Source of the DNA: Fervidobacterium changbaicum
GTDB lineage: Bacteria; Thermotogota; Thermotogae; Thermotogales; Fervidobacteriaceae
Direction: 5' to 3'
Length of the DNA: 64,000 nucleotides
NCBI RefSeq assembly: GCF_004117075.1
Contig: NZ_CP026721.1
Span: 248,001-312,000, forward strand
The translations under genes and the position numbers were made by a program. The stretch's first letter is position 1. Each line of letters starts with the position of its first letter. Positions 2,798 to 12,102 of the stretch are shown here, piece by piece. Below the pieces are notes generated by a model. It searched no databases and was not told the origin of the DNA. It saw only the letters and a program-made list of their open reading frames with translations.

Positions 2798-3538
2798 TTG
2801 AAACTGACCATAGGAAAATACATCCCAAAAGATTCCCCAATCCACCAGCTAGATCCCAGGGTAAAGATGATTTCCGTTCTTATCCAAGTTACGAGTGTAA
2901 TGTTAGTTAAAGACCTCATTGGCTACATAGGCCCCGTAGCTGTTTTTGTTTTCTTTATGCTTTTATCAAAAATAAGACCTGTTGTATATTTAAGAAGCTT
3001 AAAAAGTATGTGGTTTCTGATAGTTTTCGCTGTTATTGTTCAGTACTTCATAGGAGGGATTACTTCAAGTATTTACATAGGACTTCGCTTGTCTCTCATT
3101 TTCCTTTTTGCAACGATGTTCACATACACAACTCCTCCGCTTCTGACCGCAAGAGGAATCGTCGATATTCTCAAGTATTTCGGTGTAAAGGATGATTCAC
3201 GAGAAGATTTCGGCATGATGCTTGCGATATCGATACGCTTTATCCCAATACTCTTGGACGAGGCAGATAGGATTATCAAAGCGCAGATCTCAAGAGGTGC
3301 GAAGTATTCAGAAAAAGGTATTAAGAACAAACTATCTGCACTAACAAGTATCATTATCCCTTTGTTAGTATCTTCTTTAAGGAAAGCCGAAGAGCTATCA
3401 TTAGCTCTTCAGGCTCGCAAATACGGTGTCACAAAACGAAGTCACTATTATACACTCAGTTGGTCAAAAAGTGACACGCTTTACCTTCTTGCCAACATAG
3501 GATTGATTTGCACTGTTTTGGCGATGCGTATACTTTAG
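2798..3538 (+). CDS. ecfT: ECF transporter transmembrane T component (CbiQ/EcfT family)
   Basis: A 246-residue membrane protein with several hydrophobic helices in the first half and the cytoplasmic coupling motifs of EcfT (SRGAKYSEKG and ARKYGVTKRS) in the second half. EcfT couples two ATPases to a substrate-binding S subunit for vitamin or metal uptake. The start is a TTG behind GTAGGTGATC. No EcfA ATPase or S component lies nearby, so it is a solitary T component of the shared-module type. It overlaps the convergent aminotransferase gene by four bases. Confidence 0.85.
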   Translation: MKLTIGKYIPKDSPIHQLDPRVKMISVLIQVTSVMLVKDLIGYIGPVAVFVFFMLLSKIRPVVYLRSLKSMWFLIVFAVIVQYFIGGITSSIYIGLRLSLIFLFATMFTYTTPPLLTARGIVDILKYFGVKDDSREDFGMMLAISIRFIPILLDEADRIIKAQISRGAKYSEKGIKNKLSALTSIIIPLLVSSLRKAEELSLALQARKYGVTKRSHYYTLSWSKSDTLYLLANIGLICTVLAMRIL

Positions 3539-4671
3539 TGCTCTAAAACGTTGCAGAACCTTGTGTATATCTCGTCAATCTCTTCAGCAGTTACGTTCAA
3601 CGGCAACAAGAACCTCACAACACCACTACTTAGTATATTTACCAAAAGCCCATGGTCTATGAATTTCTCAACCCACTTCGAATCAATCGATACTCTTGGC
3701 TTTATTCCCCTCATCAACCCTATACCTAAGATGGTTCCAACATCTGAGAAACGCTTTTCAAAGTACCCGCCCATTTCAACAACTTGATGCATCAACTGTT
3801 CATCAATCATATCCAAGACCGCTCTTCCAGCGGCAAGAGCCACAGGATTCGGAGCAAACGTCGAGCCGTGTTCACCTGGCTCGAAGACATCGGCGAACTC
3901 ATCGAGCATTACACATGCACCAAGTGGCAAACCCCCTCCAATGCCTTTTGCCACAGTAACGATATCAGGTTCAATATCGAAATACTGATAGGCGTAAAAT
4001 CGTCCTGTTCTACCAAGTCCACTCTGCACCTCGTCCGCAACGATTATATATTCCTTCTTCTCCTTGTAAGTTCTTATCAAATCTACAATTTCTTTCGGAA
4101 TCAGATTAAGTCCACCACTACCGTGTACAACCTCAATGAACACGGCAGCTATATCTTCGGTCTTGTCAAAGAATTCCTTGACCACATGATAATCGTAGGG
4201 AAGAAACACTACGTTTTCATCGGATATGAACTGATTACGTATACTATCAAATCCCGTGATACTCAAGGCCTTCAAAGTCCTTCCATGAAAATTCTTAACA
4301 AAGGATACAATCTTACCATGTCTTTTTACCTTACTAACGACCTTCAGTGCACATTCTGTACTCTCCGTCCCTGAATTAGTGAAAAACACCTTTCCGTACC
4401 TTCCTGTCTCGCGTACAAGTCTTTGCGCCACGTAATTTGCATCGTCATCCACGAAAAAATTCGAAAGATGGACGTACCTATCGATTTTCTCCTTCATTGC
4501 CTGTATAACCTTCTCATGACCATGTCCGAAAAGCAAAACACCAATGCCCATGAACGTATCGATGTATCTTTTGTTCGACTTATCCCACATATATATGCCT
4601 TTCGCATGGGAAACCTCTATCGGATATCTATTATACGTATTCGACAGATAACACTCGGTTTGAGTGAGCAT
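3535..4671 (-). CDS. Class III PLP aminotransferase, acetylornithine/N-acetyl-DAP type
   Basis: A 378-residue fold-type I aminotransferase of the ArgD family. Visible landmarks are the cofactor phosphate loop NSGTESTECALK (about 99-110), the PLP-ring Asp in VADEVQSG (D213) and the Schiff-base Lys in TVAKGIGGG (K242). The family exchanges the terminal amino group of acetylated diamines with 2-oxoglutarate. As the last gene of the asd-dap-lysC operon, it probably makes N-acetyl-LL-diaminopimelate from the DapH product. An arginine role cannot be excluded, but no arg genes are near. The ATG follows AGGAGG. Confidence 0.85.
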   Translation of the reverse strand: MLTQTECYLSNTYNRYPIEVSHAKGIYMWDKSNKRYIDTFMGIGVLLFGHGHEKVIQAMKEKIDRYVHLSNFFVDDDANYVAQRLVRETGRYGKVFFTNSGTESTECALKVVSKVKRHGKIVSFVKNFHGRTLKALSITGFDSIRNQFISDENVVFLPYDYHVVKEFFDKTEDIAAVFIEVVHGSGGLNLIPKEIVDLIRTYKEKKEYIIVADEVQSGLGRTGRFYAYQYFDIEPDIVTVAKGIGGGLPLGACVMLDEFADVFEPGEHGSTFAPNPVALAAGRAVLDMIDEQLMHQVVEMGGYFEKRFSDVGTILGIGLMRGIKPRVSIDSKWVEKFIDHGLLVNILSSGVVRFLLPLNVTAEEIDEIYTRFCNVLEH

Positions 4672-4706
4672 AGATTCTTCCTCCTTATTTAAGAACTCGA
4701 ACGGTT

Positions 4707-5420
4707 CTATTTTTCTCCTCGCTTTTTGAACTTCTTACCAATGCTTTTCAGAATACTGTCTGGAGAATCAGCGCTTCCTTGATGTAAAACCTTGAAACTC
4801 TTTCCGACCAAATATCCCGCCGCCTTACGTGCCCATATTTCCTCTTTTGAGAACTCAACCTTGTTCCTATAATCGTGCTTATCAACGTACGAATGCAGTA
4901 AGTTTACCAAGTGTTTGAATTTAGACACTTGAATTCTTTGAAGCCTATCTTTTAGAATACTACCAAGTCTTGAAGAAATCTCAGCATAATGGCTATAGCA
5001 CAATACAGCGTTCGATGACTCATAAAGCGTAATCATGCTCTCGATATTCTCAACAAAAGATTCAATGTACATCTCTTCAAACATTCCTTCTTTATCGCAC
5101 AAAACACATCTGTTGGTCATCTCAGGTTCCGTTCCAGACTGCACAAAATTGGTAAGATGATCGAGCATATCCGCGTATATTATCGCTAGTCCCATCGAAC
5201 CGAGTTGCCGATGCTTAGACAAATACATCTCTATCTTTTCAACATGCTTTCGACACAAACCTTCAATACGTAGCTTAGCTCGGACTGAAGGATCGTTTAC
5301 AGCCTCATACAATAGGCTACCGATTATCTGCTCAACGGAGCTCTGTGTGAGTTTACATATGGGGCATTCAAAATTTGACTGTTCGATAACTTCCTCAAGG
5401 TGCATCTCAGTAAGTCCCAA
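4707..5420 (-). CDS. DUF6062 family protein, putative zinc-binding
   Basis: A 237-residue protein of unknown function that I recognise as DUF6062. It has Cys pairs that could bind zinc: CPIC at 19-22, then CRKH, CVLC and CYSH in order, in a mostly helical sequence with a basic C-terminal tail. The TTG start at 5420 is supported by GGAAGGTGG five bases upstream. It lies 17 bases after lysC and 35 before the aminotransferase, so it is co-transcribed with lysine biosynthesis. A direct metabolic role is not evident from sequence. Confidence 0.7.
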   Translation of the reverse strand: MGLTEMHLEEVIEQSNFECPICKLTQSSVEQIIGSLLYEAVNDPSVRAKLRIEGLCRKHVEKIEMYLSKHRQLGSMGLAIIYADMLDHLTNFVQSGTEPEMTNRCVLCDKEGMFEEMYIESFVENIESMITLYESSNAVLCYSHYAEISSRLGSILKDRLQRIQVSKFKHLVNLLHSYVDKHDYRNKVEFSKEEIWARKAAGYLVGKSFKVLHQGSADSPDSILKSIGKKFKKRGEK

Positions 5421-5437
5421 TCATTCCACCTTCCATC

Positions 5438-6658
5438 TCACAAATCAAAAGCTTCACAGATACTTTTCACAAGCTCTTGTGCAACATCTTCAGGCACGAG
5501 CACCGATATCTTAATTTCAGAAGTCGTTATCAGTTCAGGCTCAACACCGTGCTTTGCCAAAACTTCGAGCAACTTCGACGCAACACCGTAATGCGAGCGC
5601 ATGCCAGTTCCAACTACTGTTATTTTAGCATACTGACCATAGAAGTGGTATTTCGCACCGAATTCTGCCAGTGTTTCGTTCAAAAGACTTTCGATCTTAT
5701 CGAGCCTTTCAGGAACAACTGTAAACGAAACGTGAGTAGCCGAACCGTTTTTCAACAACGAAATCATGTCGACGTTTATTCCCTTCTCGGCAACCTTCTT
5801 GAATATGTCGGTAACAACATTCGCATCATTTGGAAGGTCCATAATGGACACTTTGACTTGGTTCCTATCCAAGCTCACACCAGTTACCAAAGGTTCTTCA
5901 AGCCATTCAGGAATCCTGTCAACCACCCAAGTTCCCTCCTCATCGCTGAATGATGAACCACAGTAGATTTTAACTCCATATTTTTTCGCTATCTCAACCG
6001 ATCGCGAATGTAGGACCTTTGCACCAGTTGCCGCCATTTCCAGCATATCATCGTACGTGACGTACTGAAGTTTCTTCGTCTGAGGATAGAGTTTCGGATC
6101 GCACGTGTAGACACCTGCCACATCACTGTAGATTTCACAATCGCATTTCAACTTGGCGGCCAGCGCCACCGCCGATGTGTCAGAACCACCCCTACCGAGA
6201 GTCGTTAGATGCTCATCCTCGGTAACTCCCTGAAAGCCCGTTACCACGAGCACATCATGATTATCAAGGTACTCTTTCAACTTCTTGACGCTGATATCCA
6301 TTATCCTTGCATTGTTGTGTGATTTTGTTGTCAGAATCTTCACCTGGAAAGCGTTCAGTGAGATTGCGTTTATACCCATATCTTTAAGAGCCATTGCAAC
6401 AAGTGCACAAGAAACTTGCTCGCCTGTTGTAAGGAGCATATCGAGTTCACGTTCATCCGGTCTGCTTGACACACTCTTTGCAAGCGAAATAAGGTTATCC
6501 GTGGTTTTCCCCATTGCAGAAACGACGGTCACCACTTTGTACCCTTCTTGGACTTTCTTTGCTATCCTTCGAGCTACATTCTTGATCCTCTCGGCATCCG
6601 CAACAGAAGAACCCCCGTACTTTTGAACAATGACTTTGTCGCTGCCTACCCTTGTCAA
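5438..6658 (-). CDS. lysC: Aspartate kinase
   Basis: A 406-residue monofunctional aspartokinase, the ATP-dependent first step from aspartate towards DAP/lysine, threonine and methionine. The N-terminal kinase domain starts VQKYGGSSVADAERIKNV and contains GRGGSDTSAVALAAKL. Two C-terminal ACT domains (about 265-400) are the usual sites of lysine or threonine feedback. The start is a TTG behind AGGTGA, six bases away. It sits in the lysine operon between dapH and the DUF6062 gene, so lysine is the likely effector; that is inferred from context. Confidence 0.95.
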   Translation of the reverse strand: MTRVGSDKVIVQKYGGSSVADAERIKNVARRIAKKVQEGYKVVTVVSAMGKTTDNLISLAKSVSSRPDERELDMLLTTGEQVSCALVAMALKDMGINAISLNAFQVKILTTKSHNNARIMDISVKKLKEYLDNHDVLVVTGFQGVTEDEHLTTLGRGGSDTSAVALAAKLKCDCEIYSDVAGVYTCDPKLYPQTKKLQYVTYDDMLEMAATGAKVLHSRSVEIAKKYGVKIYCGSSFSDEEGTWVVDRIPEWLEEPLVTGVSLDRNQVKVSIMDLPNDANVVTDIFKKVAEKGINVDMISLLKNGSATHVSFTVVPERLDKIESLLNETLAEFGAKYHFYGQYAKITVVGTGMRSHYGVASKLLEVLAKHGVEPELITTSEIKISVLVPEDVAQELVKSICEAFDL

Positions 6659-6683
6659 TGCCTGTCACCTACCTATCCTCAAC

Positions 6684-7430
6684 TTACTTATTAATCTCTC
6701 TGAGACTTTCCAAAATCTGAGTTTTATCGGCTGTCTTCTCATCAACCTTCTTAACCATCTTTGCCGGCACACCAGCGACAACGGTGTACGGTTCAACATC
6801 GTTGACAACAACTGCACCAGCTGCGACGACCGCGTGATGCCCAACCCTGACACCTTCTAAAATCACAGCATTCGCACCAACAAGGACGTGATCTTCGATG
6901 ACAACGGGATTTGCACTTGGCGGTTCAACAACACCAGCCACAACAGCACCAGCACCTATGTGGCAGTACCTACCAATGCGAGCTCGCGCACCGATTACAG
7001 CGTTCATATCGACCATCGTCCCTTCACCTATAACCGCCCCTATATTAATCACAGCGCCCATCATAACAACCGCCTTATCACCTATCTCAACATACTCACG
7101 AATAATCGCACCGGGCTCTATCCTTGCATTGAAGCGTGAAATATCCGCAAGCGGTATAGCCGAATTCCTTGCGATGTACTCCACTTTGTAATGGCGTATA
7201 TTCTTGTTCTCAAGTACTTGAGATATCACTTCCAAATCTCCAAACAAAACACCGAAGTCTTTACCTACGACAAAATCAAACTCAGCACCTTGAGATCTGT
7301 ATTTATTGAAATCGATGCCCTCAAGATTTCCGGATACATAAACCCTAACAACATCCCTTTTCTTACTCTTTGCTATTAGTTCAATAATCTCTTCGCTTGT
7401 TAATTCCCTTGCACTCTTTTTCATGTCCAT
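6684..7430 (-). CDS. dapH: 2,3,4,5-tetrahydropyridine-2,6-dicarboxylate N-acetyltransferase
   Basis: A 248-residue acetyltransferase that uses acetyl-CoA to acetylate the open form of tetrahydrodipicolinate, committing the pathway to acetylated DAP intermediates. The C-terminal two thirds is a left-handed beta-helix of hexapeptide repeats (for example [20 protein letters not shown]), with the DapH-type signature [20 protein letters not shown]. The N-terminal domain is also DapH-like rather than succinyl-type DapD. The ATG follows GGAGGG. Gene order dapB-dapH-lysC supports the call. Confidence 0.95.
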
Positions 7431-7453
7431 CTTACTCCCTCCAATTTTTAAAT

Positions 7454-8122
7454 CTACAATCCCGCAGATGCGAGCACATCGTCGTAGCTGTAGAATCCTT
7501 TTTCTTTTGTTAACACAAATAACGCTGCATTCCTCACACCTATTGCAAATGCCCTTCTTGACAAAGCCCTGTGCGTTAGCTCTATCGTTTCACCTGAGTT
7601 CGAGAAAATCACCGTATGTTCACCAAAAACCCCACCAACCCTTATGGAACTTATAGGCACCTCCCTGCCCAGTGCCTGCTTCAGTATCTTCGCAGTTCCA
7701 GAAGGCGCATCCTTCTTTTGATTGTGGTGGATTTCAACCATAGCGGCATCCCAATCTTCAAAATAAGCACCGTACTCTTTCAATAGCCTTTTTAAAATAG
7801 CAATACCGGTCGAAAAATTGTAGCTCTGAACAACTGGCACATAGTTAGCTAACTCGTGTAGTGCATCGAAATGTTCCTGCATCAGAGCGGTTGTCCCTAT
7901 CACAAGTCCAGAACCATATTTCTTGCACAGCTCGACAGTTTCAAAAACTGCGTCTGGTGATGAGAAGTCAATTATTACCTGCGGTGTTTCGATTTCTTCT
8001 GAAAATCCCTTGTCTTTTTTGAAAACACACACATCACCGAACAAAGAAAAATAGCTCTGAATTTCCGTACCCATCTTTCCATTGGCACCGATTAGGCCAT
8101 ACCTTAAATTTCTTTCACTCAT
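7454..8122 (-). CDS. dapB: 4-hydroxy-tetrahydrodipicolinate reductase
   Basis: A 222-residue NAD(P)H-dependent reductase that follows DapA. Visible motifs are the N-terminal nucleotide loop [10 protein letters not shown], the DFSSPDAV segment, the substrate and catalytic region [16 protein letters not shown] and a C-terminal SRRAFAIG. It is shorter than the roughly 270-residue enterobacterial enzyme, a known compact form in thermophiles. The start codon overlaps the dapA stop (ATGA), so the two are translationally coupled. Confidence 0.95.
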
Positions 8123-9027
8123 TGAATCACCCCCAACTCTCTGAGAACAACTCTTAGCTTTTCCACGGTCGATTCCTTTGGTGGAACGAGTGGGAGCCTG
8201 AATTCATTGTTCAGCAATCCCATCAAGTACATAGCAGCCTTAACTGGAAGCGGATTGGTTTCGATAAACAAGGCTTTAAAGAGTGGGAGAAGACGTGTGT
8301 GGATCTCGAGGGCTTTTGGAAGGTTAGCTGAGAATATCGCATCCACCATCTCTACCATCTGTGCTGGAATCACGTTCGAAGCCACGGAGATAACACCTTT
8401 TGCACCAGCACAAATCATGTGAAACGCCCTATCATCGTTACCGGAGTATATGTAAAAATCGAGGTCTTTTGTCAATCTGTAAATCTCATCTGATTGTGCA
8501 ACGTCCGGATTAGCTTCCTTTATCGCTTTGACATTCCTGCATTCGGCAGCTAAGCGTGCCACAGTTTCAGGAGATATATTCACGCCTGTTCGAGATGGGA
8601 CGTTGTATATGACGATGGGAATATCCAACCTTTCGGACAGATATTTGTAGTGTGCGTAAAGACCTTCTTGAGTGGGCTTGTTGTAGTAAGGTGTCACTAT
8701 CAAGACCGCATCCGCACCGCAGCGTTGTGCACTCAGTGAAAGTTCCAAAGTCTTCTTGGTATCGTTGCTCCCAGTTCCCACAATGACCTGAGCCTTGCCT
8801 TCGCACAACTGCTTTGTCAAAGTTGTCAGTTGTTCTCTTTCCTCAACACTTAATGTGGCACCTTCACCTGTCGTACCTGCAACGATTATGGCACTTACAC
8901 CGCTTTCCAACTGCCATCTAACGATTCGCTCATAGCTTTCGTAATCAACCTCTCCGTTGACAAAAGGTGTCACTATCGCAGTCCCGACCCCTTCGAACAT
9001 CCGCATTTGACCTGCTGAATTACCCAT
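8119..9027 (-). CDS. dapA: 4-hydroxy-tetrahydrodipicolinate synthase
   Basis: A 302-residue aldolase of the DapA/NAL family that condenses pyruvate with aspartate semialdehyde. Schiff-base Lys170 (AIKEANPD), GTTGE (51-55) and YNVPSRTG (141-148, with the catalytic Tyr) are present. The ATG at 9027 has a GGGGGAG site and overlaps the end of dapF. Homologues usually begin near MFEGVGTAIVTPF, so an ATG nine codons later is also possible. Confidence 0.95.
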   Translation of the reverse strand: MGNSAGQMRMFEGVGTAIVTPFVNGEVDYESYERIVRWQLESGVSAIIVAGTTGEGATLSVEEREQLTTLTKQLCEGKAQVIVGTGSNDTKKTLELSLSAQRCGADAVLIVTPYYNKPTQEGLYAHYKYLSERLDIPIVIYNVPSRTGVNISPETVARLAAECRNVKAIKEANPDVAQSDEIYRLTKDLDFYIYSGNDDRAFHMICAGAKGVISVASNVIPAQMVEMVDAIFSANLPKALEIHTRLLPLFKALFIETNPLPVKAAMYLMGLLNNEFRLPLVPPKESTVEKLRVVLRELGVIQ

Positions 9028-9787
9028 GTTCGACTCCCCCTTCTAAGTAGATTCCATCACTTTCAAAAAGAACATTGAGCACTCCGCCTTTTGTATGCGC
9101 CGTCAACCTGTCAGGAACCTTGTTGTTTCCAAGCACGTAATACTTAACAAAGTACGCTGTTGCAGTAGTTCCTGACCCGCAAGATAGCGTCTCTCTTTCA
9201 ACGCCCCTTTCAAACGTGCGAATCTCAAACGTGCTGGAATTCAAAACATTAAACAAATTGACGTTGGCATCGTACCTGTGTCTGAGCAACCTTGCAACCT
9301 CCATATCAAACTCCCAAATCGCACTACCGACGTACTTAACAAGGTGAGGTACACCTACTGTAATCAACGCACCGTCGAAGTCTTCCAGCTCCTTTTTGGG
9401 TATCAAAGAACTGACAACTGGTTCTGGCATCTGCACATAAACGTTCTCTTTAGTGTATCCAACAAGCACACCTGCGTTTGTTTCTATACTCACTTTCCCT
9501 TGCACACCAAAATGCTCAGACAGAAATCTCAAAAACGTCCTTGCACCGTTTCCGCAAAAGGCCGCCCTCTTTCCGTCCCTGTTAAAATAATCCATGAAAA
9601 AACGTTCATCACGCCGTTCAACGAAAATGACCCCGTCTCTTTCCTCAACAACCGAAAGCACAACTTCCTGCTTTTCTTCATCGCTAAGTTCGATGCTAGT
9701 TGAATCGACAACAACGAACGTATTACCGGTCGCAGAGTACTTCTCAATCAAAGTAATTCCGTACCTTCTTAACTCATCTTCTCTCAA
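9020..9787 (-). CDS. dapF: Diaminopimelate epimerase
   Basis: A 255-residue epimerase converting LL- to meso-DAP without cofactor. The two catalytic cysteines lie in FCGNGART and SCGSGTTA, and the N-terminal KYSATGNTF segment matches the family. The TTG at 9787 has AGAGGTC about eight bases upstream; a TTG at 9808 lacks a site, and a TTG at 9751 would give the length closest to homologues. It overlaps asd at its start and dapA at its end, so the genes are tightly coupled. Confidence 0.92.
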   Translation of the reverse strand: MREDELRRYGITLIEKYSATGNTFVVVDSTSIELSDEEKQEVVLSVVEERDGVIFVERRDERFFMDYFNRDGKRAAFCGNGARTFLRFLSEHFGVQGKVSIETNAGVLVGYTKENVYVQMPEPVVSSLIPKKELEDFDGALITVGVPHLVKYVGSAIWEFDMEVARLLRHRYDANVNLFNVLNSSTFEIRTFERGVERETLSCGSGTTATAYFVKYYVLGNNKVPDRLTAHTKGGVLNVLFESDGIYLEGGVEHG

Positions 9788-10787
9788 CTTCTTCGACCTC
9801 TCTTTCAACAGTCGGATTGTTCAGTTCACTGTGCAGTTTAAGGATTCTCACCGCGTTTGTTGCCGCTCCAACCCGCAAATTGTCTGCTACAACCCATAGC
9901 CCGAACGTTTGTGCATCGAACAACCTCACTCTACTAACATGCACGTAATCATCGCCTGCTACCTCGAGCGGAGTGACAATATCATCGTGAACCACAACAT
10001 CTTCACCGGAGGCTATCGTCTCAATGAGGTCTTCCTTTGACATTATTGGAAAGAGCGTGCGTGCGATAACACTTTCAGAATGTCCGATTCTAACAGGAAC
10101 CCTCACCGTTGTTGGAAAGACCGCTAAGGCTTTTGAATTCAATATCTTTTTGGTCTCATTTATCATCTTCCACTCTTCTTGGGAAATATCGTCTTTGAGG
10201 TCTCCTATCAAAGGAATCACATTGTGGGCTATCTGCCTTACAAAAACGGAATGAGAATCATCGCCCGAAAGCTGCCTTTCATATTCGACAATGGCCTTGT
10301 GACCAGCCCCGGAAACCGCTTGATACGTTGAGACGAATATCTCGTGCAGCTGGTATTTGTCGTGCACTTTATAAAGTGCCAGCACCATCTGGATCGTCGA
10401 ACAGTTCGGATTTGCCACGATTCCGCGGTATCCTTTCAGTAGATGCCCATTAATTTCCGGAACAACGAGCGGAATTTCCGGAACCATCCTGAATGCGGAA
10501 GAATTATCGATGACCGTTGTTCCGACCTCAGCAGCTATCGGAGCGTACCTTCTTGATACATCAGCACCGGCTGAGAACAGTAAGTAGTCAAAACCTTCTC
10601 TCATAGCCTCTTGCGTGAGTGTTTCAACCCTTACATCCGCACCTCGGAACGTAAGGATCTGACCTGCTGACCTTTCCGACGCAAATAGCCTCAGTTCTGA
10701 AACAGGAACACTACTTTTTTCAAGCACTTCGAGCATCGTTCTTCCAACCGCACCAGTTGCACCTACAATCCCGATTTTGAAACCCAT
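9774..10787 (-). CDS. asd: Aspartate-semialdehyde dehydrogenase
   Basis: A 337-residue NADP-dependent dehydrogenase reducing aspartyl phosphate to the semialdehyde. It has GIVGATGAVGRTM at the N terminus, the active-site Cys in VANPNCSTIQ and the QAVSGAGHK segment. The open frame extends to a GTG at 10817, but AGGAGGT sits six bases before the ATG at 10787, so that start is used. This is the first structural gene of the lysine operon. It lies behind an intrinsic terminator and a leader ORF (see separate entries), so its expression is probably set by attenuation. Confidence 0.95.
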   Translation of the reverse strand: MGFKIGIVGATGAVGRTMLEVLEKSSVPVSELRLFASERSAGQILTFRGADVRVETLTQEAMREGFDYLLFSAGADVSRRYAPIAAEVGTTVIDNSSAFRMVPEIPLVVPEINGHLLKGYRGIVANPNCSTIQMVLALYKVHDKYQLHEIFVSTYQAVSGAGHKAIVEYERQLSGDDSHSVFVRQIAHNVIPLIGDLKDDISQEEWKMINETKKILNSKALAVFPTTVRVPVRIGHSESVIARTLFPIMSKEDLIETIASGEDVVVHDDIVTPLEVAGDDYVHVSRVRLFDAQTFGLWVVADNLRVGAATNAVRILKLHSELNNPTVEREVEEVERR

Positions 10788-10826
10788 AAACATACCTCCT
10801 CTTCTTGCACTTCTCACTTTAGTTTT

Positions 10827-10863
10827 AAAAAAAGCGGGCTACAGTCTTTCACTGTAGCCCGCT
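10827..10863 (-). terminator. Intrinsic terminator in the asd leader (attenuator)
   Basis: On the minus strand a perfect 13-bp stem (AGCGGGCTACAGT with its complement, 5-nt loop) is followed by seven T residues. It lies about 40 bases upstream of the asd start in the same direction, where a terminator makes sense only as an attenuator of the lysine operon. Confidence 0.85.
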
Positions 10864-10947
10864 TATGGTAGTCTTTCCCTATTACTTGCGCTTGCTTTAC
10901 ACCACGCCAAACGCAAGCTGACCACCATATAGCGGGCAGCTGCGTTT
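10857..10947 (-). promoter_or_regulatory. Antiterminator and competing stems of the asd attenuator
   Basis: Four pairing segments can be read on the minus strand. Segment 1 (10947-10937) pairs with segment 2 (10920-10909) over 11 bp with one bulge. Segment 2 (10917-10908) can instead pair with segment 3 (10894-10885) over 10 bp. Segment A (10937-10920) pairs with segment B (10873-10857) over 17 bp with one G-U and one bulge. B overlaps the 5' arm of the terminator, so A:B excludes termination. A lies in the loop of 1:2, so 1:2 excludes A:B. No lysine-riboswitch or T-box consensus was found. Confidence 0.7.
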
Positions 10948-11016
10948 AGCTTTAGACTTCATATTGAAATTTACATTCGGCATTTCAGAATTTAATAATC
11001 TCAGGTAATTTGCCAT
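10897..11016 (-). CDS. Putative 39-residue leader peptide of the lysine operon
   Basis: A short ORF starts at an ATG at 11016 with GAGGAG ten bases upstream (11032-11027). Its stop lies between pairing segments 2 and 3 of the attenuator. Three lysine codons occur within five codons (KSKAK, 10959-10945), and the last overlaps segment 1. A ribosome stalled there would cover segment 1 and free A to pair with B, giving read-through. A ribosome at the stop would cover A and segment 2, giving termination. This is the geometry of ribosome-mediated attenuation. The peptide is not identified by homology. Confidence 0.55.
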   Translation of the reverse strand: MANYLRLLNSEMPNVNFNMKSKAKRSCPLYGGQLAFGVV

Positions 11017-11041
11017 ATCCAAATATCTCCTCACTTAAATT

Positions 11042-11055
11042 CGATACTGTTAACT
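11042..11055 (+). repeat. Left terminal inverted repeat of the IS6-like element
   Basis: CGATACTGTTAACT; its mirror at 12089-12102 is the complement with a single change. Confidence 0.75.
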
Positions 11056-11062
11056 AAAAGTA

Positions 11063-11091
11063 TTGAAACTTTCCAAAAACCGCATTATCCT
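11063..11091 (+). promoter_or_regulatory. Probable transposase promoter
   Basis: TTGAAA (11063-11068) and TATCCT (11086-11091) are separated by 17 bases, about 50 bases before the transposase start. On the opposite strand GATAAT (11084-11089) could act as an outward -10 towards the lysine operon, but its -35 is poor. Confidence 0.4.
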
Positions 11092-11143
11092 TATAAAGAG
11101 GGGACACCCCCCAACCAACTCTCGACAAAGGAGGTATCCCGAT

Positions 11144-12094
11144 ATGAACAACTCAACGCTCTCTTGTCCAAAATGCGGTTCCACCAGCTTATACAAAAAC
11201 GGTCATGACAAATACGGTAACCAACAATTCCTTTGCAAACTCTGCCATCATTCTTTCAAACTCTCCCATTCTCACAAACGCAAAAACTTCTCTTTCCCTT
11301 ATCCCAAATGCACTTCTTGTGGTAAATCTATGCAAATTTACAAAGTCCGTCGCTCTTTCGTTGTCTTCCGTTGTAGAGCTTGTCGTACCAAAGATAGAGT
11401 ACCTTTTAACCTCCCCGAACCAGTCACCCTTATTCCTGAGAAATTTAAATATTTCCGCTTCCCTATCTTTTTCGTCTTAAAGGCTTTCGTTTTGTATATG
11501 AAACACAATATGTCTTATCGCTCTCTTGCTCATTCTCTTAATATCAAAGTATCTCATGTCACCATATACAAATGGGTTATTAAATTGTGTACTTTATTCT
11601 CTGTACTTTTTCCAACATTTACCATCGAAAATGTTTTCTCAGTTCATGCTGATGAAACTGTTCTTGTTTTCAAAGAACAAAAGTACTATGTTTGGCTATT
11701 AGTTGATCACGAAACTAACTTAATTCTTTGTTGGCATGTCTCAAAGTATCGTGATATGGGACAAGTCAAAGTATTGCTCGAGAAGTTCTTTGGTAATTCA
11801 AAACCTAGAAACATTGAACTTATTACTGATGGACTTGGTGCATATGAAAGTGCAGTAAAGCTGTTGTTCAGAAATATCAATCACGTAGTGGTACCGCTCG
11901 GTAAAAACAATCAATGTGAATCCAAGTTTTCATTGTTGAAAGACTTTTTCCGACTCAAGCGAGGGCTGAAGAATACGAAGAATTTAGCGAAATATATTCA
12001 AGGATTTTGTGTAGTGAAGAATCTTTGGAAAACGCACAATGGTAATATCAATCTCATTCTTTCACACTTACACTCTTTCATCACTACAAGTTAA
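11144..12094 (+). CDS. IS6-like DDE transposase with N-terminal zinc ribbons
   Basis: A 316-residue transposase. The N terminus has two Cys4-type zinc ribbons (CPKCGS with CKLC; CTSCGK with CRAC), followed by a helix-turn-helix-like region (YRSLAHSLNIKVSHVTIYKWV). The DDE core follows: first Asp in VHADETV, second in LITDGLGAYESA, Glu in NNQCESKFS. The ATG at 11144 has AGGAGGT eight bases upstream; the open frame extends further upstream but without a site. The frame is intact, so the element may be active. IS6 is the best fit to the core; a related DDE family is possible. Confidence 0.85.
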   Translation: MNNSTLSCPKCGSTSLYKNGHDKYGNQQFLCKLCHHSFKLSHSHKRKNFSFPYPKCTSCGKSMQIYKVRRSFVVFRCRACRTKDRVPFNLPEPVTLIPEKFKYFRFPIFFVLKAFVLYMKHNMSYRSLAHSLNIKVSHVTIYKWVIKLCTLFSVLFPTFTIENVFSVHADETVLVFKEQKYYVWLLVDHETNLILCWHVSKYRDMGQVKVLLEKFFGNSKPRNIELITDGLGAYESAVKLLFRNINHVVVPLGKNNQCESKFSLLKDFFRLKRGLKNTKNLAKYIQGFCVVKNLWKTHNGNINLILSHLHSFITTS

Positions 12095-12102
12095 CACTAT
12101 CG
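12089..12102 (-). repeat. Right terminal inverted repeat of the IS6-like element
   Basis: On the minus strand it reads CGATAGTGTTAACT, 13 of 14 identical to the left repeat. It contains the transposase stop codon. Confidence 0.75.

Follow-up and report, generated by a model that had tools for sequence, protein, structure and literature searches.

A probable lysine-codon leader-peptide attenuator before the lysine operon of Fervidobacterium changbaicum and related leaders in the Thermotogota

Accounts of lysine control in bacteria usually centre on a riboswitch. The leader-peptide attenuators of enteric bacteria have pairing segments that follow one another in the sequential order 1:2, 2:3 and 3:4, and we know of no lysine-codon leader of this type. 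All Thermotogae species examined in one study carry a lysine riboswitch before the lysine operon; Fervidobacterium is not mentioned there (PMC5584792).

Here we describe a leader of about 210 bases (11034-10825, minus strand) that lies between an insertion sequence (IS) and asd in F. changbaicum. Coordinates refer to the window, i.e. the whole 64 000-nucleotide stretch of DNA that was analysed. The genes behind the leader, asd-dapF-dapA-dapB-dapH-lysC-(DUF6062)-aminotransferase, cover most of lysine biosynthesis, with dapH of the N-acetyltransferase type and an ArgD-like aminotransferase. The DUF6062 protein is encoded between lysC and the aminotransferase gene (4707-5420).

Architecture and competing folds of the leader

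The leader consists, in this order, of a Shine-Dalgarno (SD) sequence, a 39-codon open reading frame (ORF) with lysine codons, the hairpin 1:2, the helix A:B around 2:3 and the terminator, followed by asd (Table 1). The SD sequence stands about 12 nt 5' of the ORF start, and an in-frame TTG six bases further upstream may be the true start. The lysine codons occupy positions 10959-10957, 10953-10951 and 10947-10945, the last of them lying within segment 1 and beginning 11 nt ahead of segment A, and the stop codon (10899-10897) abuts segment 3. An ORF with three lysine codons in five, the last overlapping segment 1, and a stop between segments 2 and 3 had been described in an earlier sequence-only reading of this DNA and were found in place; the terminator, put there at 13 bp, came out at 13-14 bp with its T tract. 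The antiterminator A:B is likewise present, with 16 bp in the computed fold instead of the 17 bp claimed.

Table 1. Features of the leader, its surroundings and the threonine version (window coordinates, except for the last row)
Feature	Position	Strand	Evidence
IS, 1059 bp, DDE_Tnp_IS240 transposase; between leader and native promoter, outside the switch	11043..12101	+	
Shine-Dalgarno region, GAGGAG, and alternative in-frame TTG start	11019..11034	-	
Leader ORF, 39 codons, MANYLRLLNSEMPNVNFNMKSKAKRSCPLYGGQLAFGVV and stop	10897..11016	-	conservation of open frame and SD
Control codons Lys-Ser-Lys-Ala-Lys (AAG TCT AAA GCT AAA)	10945..10959	-	Lys position conserved
Segment 1, 5' arm of protector hairpin 1:2	10937..10950	-	folding, covariation
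Segment A, 5' arm of antiterminator, self-folded inside 1:2	10920..10936	-	folding, covariation
Segment 2, partner of either 1 or 3	10906..10920	-	folding, covariation
Segment 3, pairs with 2 once 1 is covered	10885..10897	-	folding, covariation
Segment B, antiterminator 3' arm, overlapping terminator 5' arm	10858..10873	-	folding, covariation
Intrinsic terminator hairpin, 13-14 bp	10832..10864	-	folding, covariation
Terminator T tract, seven T	10825..10831	-	
asd, aspartate-semialdehyde dehydrogenase, first gene of lysine operon	9774..10787	-	
Rest of operon: dapF, dapA, dapB, dapH, lysC, DUF6062, class-III aminotransferase	3535..9808	-	
Threonine version of the attenuator, peptide MCEVFVVAQLNSGTTTTSNCPPAERRLLVVV and stop, before hom-thrC-thrB	G030:C1:390992-391105		

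The whole leader folds at -62.4 kcal/mol (z = -5.9), a value as good as which was reached by 0 of 200 shuffles, into the 1:2 hairpin, with A self-folded in the apical part, plus the terminator; 1:2 has 14 bp and one bulge (10950-10937 with 10920-10906). When the 5' part was removed, mimicking a stalled ribosome, the A-to-B region folded at about -36 to -38 kcal/mol into a 16-bp A:B around 2:3 (antiterminator part alone, z about -6). These computed folds bear out the earlier proposals that 1:2 traps A, which the whole-leader fold holds in the apical part of that hairpin, and that 2:3 forms when segment 1 is masked, since the shortened leader has 2:3 inside A:B. The CCCGCT of segment A is a copy of the end of the terminator 3' arm, so that A:B and the terminator are in competition for shared bases.

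Folding was computed for the competing states of each of the 26 such leaders found in the phylum (see below). Among the 12 aligned leaders, 1:2 plus the terminator had 95.8% of cells paired and 7 pairs changed on both sides, and A:B plus 2:3 had 87.5% of cells paired and 10 such pairs. Neither covariation count was reached in 500 shuffles and slid controls were far lower, although the leaders are phylogenetically related, so that the counts are not independent and are inflated by kinship. An antiterminator and an intrinsic terminator that exclude one another are supported in silico, by folding as well as by covariation, across sequences as distant as those of G028, G030 and the window genome. 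For two dapA leaders, G028_dapA and G030_dapA, the complete leader has its lowest computed energy in a fold that retains A or 2:3 pairings belonging to the read-through state, and the choice there would have to be kinetic. The terminator is the most conserved part of the leader, as might be expected if it were constitutive and the ORF fortuitous, or if the attenuator were bound by a protein. This explanation is extremely improbable, because the covariation in A:B and 2:3 is independent of the terminator, and the ORF and the codon block are conserved.

Occurrence, reading frame and control codons

In all, 20 genomes of the phylum yielded 26 leaders of the same architecture, located before asd (10), dapA (3), dapH (9), hom (1) and a basic amino acid ABC transporter (3). 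The asd leader is present in 7 of the 7 genomes of the same genus in which the region upstream of asd is assembled (G003 and G005, which are fragmentary there, are outside this count) and in both g2 genomes. Each of these leaders has its own SD, start, open frame and a stop at the same place, and all share the core K-A-K-R, with one or two further Lys codons just upstream except in G001. The alignment with relatives that had been suggested as a check on the sequence-only reading thus shows conservation of the ORF, of its lysine codons and of every paired segment, the last with covariation.

Beyond the genus and g2, 103 phylum genomes were screened with R2, a covariance model built on the termination fold, and the same architecture came up in the family f2 and in G042. 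It precedes dapA-dapB in every f2 genome that has dapB (G024, G028 and G030), dapH in nine f2 genomes, asd in G042 and the ABC transporter in G022, G024 and G036; the binding protein of this transporter is nearest to the lysine/arginine/ornithine type but falls below the cut-off of that model. A further match to the same scaffold before an ABC transporter (G020:C7:57277-57349) is known as a pattern match only. Several f2 genomes with the Lys leader before dapH (G020, G022, G026, G032, G034, G036 and G038) had no DapB_C domain in our search; either their lysine pathway is partial or the reductase went unrecognised. A pattern of A, B and terminator run over 44 genomes of the order returned almost only these leaders (one match in the reversed control). 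No such leader was found in a plasmid collection, and a pattern scan of viral contigs gave two matches, possibly by chance. Many weak R2 matches (E above about 1e-5) were ordinary terminators, some of them on the strand opposite to true leaders, and were not counted; candidate loci L259-L262 were discarded on inspection.

As in an attenuator, a short ORF precedes the terminator: in 24 of the 26 leaders, reading upstream in frame with the control codons meets no stop before a start codon that has an SD sequence of at least 4 bases (2.4 expected from shuffled upstream sequence), and the same is true of 0/26 leaders in each of the other two frames. The N-terminal half of the leader peptide is variable throughout, so that the frame is conserved and not the sequence. 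The C-terminal stretch KAKRSCPLxGGQLAFG, common to the genus and g2, could point to a nascent-peptide arrest leader (TnaC- or SpeFL-like), which would sense free lysine via the ribosome tunnel and not tRNA charging. We consider this very unlikely: besides the variable N-terminal half, the peptide past the Lys block is not kept outside the genus and g2 (KKRNRPPVEWWLRFFA, KKTKHNCPLFAVWLCLLF) whereas the RNA pairing is, and the conserved stretch is accounted for by segments 1, A and 2.

In every lysine-gene leader (22/22) codon -11, relative to the first base of A, is Lys, and these leaders have two to four Lys codons at -23 to -11, with both AAA and AAG in use. Before hom-thrC-thrB of G030, codons -20, -17, -14 and -11 are ACA ACA ACT ACA, i.e. 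four Thr, so a cluster of codons for the end product is found with threonine genes as with lysine genes. This hom leader and the dapA leader of G030 have nearly the same terminator, suggesting duplication followed by codon change. When Thr leaders were sought before hom homologues (40 genomes with a match, 30 loci fetched, 2 of them unreadable), the architecture was seen only in G030. Thr codons on the same scaffold before a threonine operon amount to a natural codon-swap experiment and point to translation-coupled attenuation in a thermophilic phylum. The ABC transporter leaders have Lys-His-His-Ala-Lys (KHHAK) or Lys-His-Tyr-Asn-Arg (KHYNR) in the control slot, codons that would suit a carrier of basic amino acids.

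Proposed attenuation, the lysine riboswitch and an apparently displaced promoter

Given what the sequences provide, namely the ORF with its start and SD, the fixed codon block, the two covarying folds, the cognate genes and the threonine swap, it is highly probable that the leader controls the lysine operon by ribosome-mediated transcription attenuation, with charged lysyl-tRNA as the signal. We infer lysine-responsive stalling, the ribosome footprint, termination and the response to lysine from this arrangement. When Lys-tRNA is plentiful, the ribosome would pass the Lys codons, reach the stop codon and depart; 1:2 would then form, keep A in its apical part and withdraw 2 from 3, leaving B free, and the terminator would fold. 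Absent translation, like completed translation, would result in 1:2 plus the terminator. When Lys-tRNA is scarce, the ribosome would stall with a Lys codon in its A site. The leading edge of a ribosome lies about 15 nt beyond the first P-site base, and with codon -11 in the A site it would come to the border of segments 1 and A, covering 1 and leaving A free, a geometry that would be the same for Lys and Thr leaders. With segment 1 covered, 2:3 would form with A:B around it, the 5' arm of the terminator would be consumed and the polymerase would proceed into asd. A ribosome that paused on the stop codon would mask part of segments 2 and 3 with A briefly free, so its release must be rapid relative to the polymerase.

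The lysine riboswitch model (RF00168) had no match in the window or in the rest of the genome, and the T. maritima positive control did match, in agreement with the earlier remark that no lysine riboswitch fold is visible at the leader. An Rfam scan of the window had no family, RF00168 included, matching the leader, and permissive E-values added only chance matches there. The T-box model gave no match at gathering score in the window and none at E up to 10 in 10600-11400. There was also no match to the Rfam His, Trp, Thr and Leu leader models; Rfam models of amino acid leaders are lineage-specific, so this is no argument against the mechanism. Across the phylum 57 of the 103 genomes match the lysine riboswitch, and none of the 20 genomes carrying the leader does, i.e. 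the two are mutually exclusive in the genomes searched. In nine genomes of the same family the riboswitch lies directly before asd, with its end some 70 to 80 bases from the asd match. Apparently, one kind of RNA switch has been exchanged for another at the same operon position. Within one family, and for the same operon, sister genera appear to sense either free lysine (riboswitch) or Lys-tRNA charging (leader peptide), which makes the turnover of RNA regulators directly testable.

Relatives have a riboswitch at the same place, and the leader ahead of the lysine genes is highly structured and can fold in alternative ways, which might suggest that the ORF is incidental and that the RNA is a new riboswitch binding a metabolite (lysine or one of its precursors). 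The probability of this appears very small. There is no Rfam match, the conserved bases are in the competing helices and a multi-helix aptamer core is absent, the frame, the start and the SD persist even where the RNA sequence varies, and the Lys slot becomes Thr before threonine genes on the same RNA architecture. The leader-peptide attenuation proposed in the sequence-only reading is supported by the conserved ORF and Lys codons, the covarying segments and the lack of an Rfam match.

In relatives, segment 1 is preceded, at a distance of some 120 to 180 bases, by a near-consensus TTGACA/TATAAT promoter, and in the window strain the IS occupies its place. This IS has six near-identical copies in the genome, four with 8-bp target duplications and the window copy without. 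The 8-bp right flank of the window copy, GAATTTAA, recurs as the left flank of another copy, at about 2.09 Mb (about 2,090,591). Just upstream of this second copy is TTGACAAACCATGGGACTCTTGTGGTATAAT (2,090,494-2,090,524), with flanks similar (best E about 5e-7) to asd promoters in relatives. Based on the shared flank and the promoter at the distant copy, the native asd promoter appears to have been shifted 1.83 Mb by recombination between IS copies. The present transcription of the leader is therefore in doubt, and read-through and an outward promoter in the IS are candidates for the present driver of the operon. In several IS copies (L319, L320 and L323) an apparent SD and start codon follow the end within a few bases, as though the element supplied an outward promoter from that end.

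Relation to known regulators

No lysine leader-peptide attenuator was found in the open-access literature searched, and no translation-coupled attenuation in this thermophilic phylum; the same search turned up nothing at odds with the earlier view that such control of a dap/lysine operon in Thermotogota would be new. The leader is very probably a genuine leader-peptide attenuator for lysine, with a new amino acid, a nested topology and, as far as the literature searched goes, a phylum new to this mechanism. We are inclined, with somewhat less confidence, to see in the Thermotogota a modular attenuator family on one nested scaffold, in which the codon block alone would set the amino acid (Lys, Thr, perhaps His/Lys/Arg). 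This family would have spread by duplication, displaced the lysine riboswitch in the Fervidobacterium-type and f2 lineages and included the first lysine-codon attenuator.

In Thermotoga maritima and in sister genera, the lysine riboswitch (L-box, RF00168) occupies the same operon position ahead of these same genes, but the present leader does not match it and would read codons, whereas the riboswitch reads the free ligand. The uORFC-8-2 cysS motif of Rhodobacterales is likewise a recent attenuator candidate found by structure and cognate codons, although it has cysteine codons before cysS and belongs to alpha-proteobacteria (PMC8632094). With the enteric attenuators (trp, his, thr, leu, ilv) the leader shares a translated short leader with a block of cognate codons before cognate biosynthetic genes, a stop codon among the competing helices and an antiterminator opposed to an intrinsic terminator. 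It differs from them in its amino acid, lysine, and in its nested five-segment topology, with A inside 1:2 and A:B enclosing 2:3.
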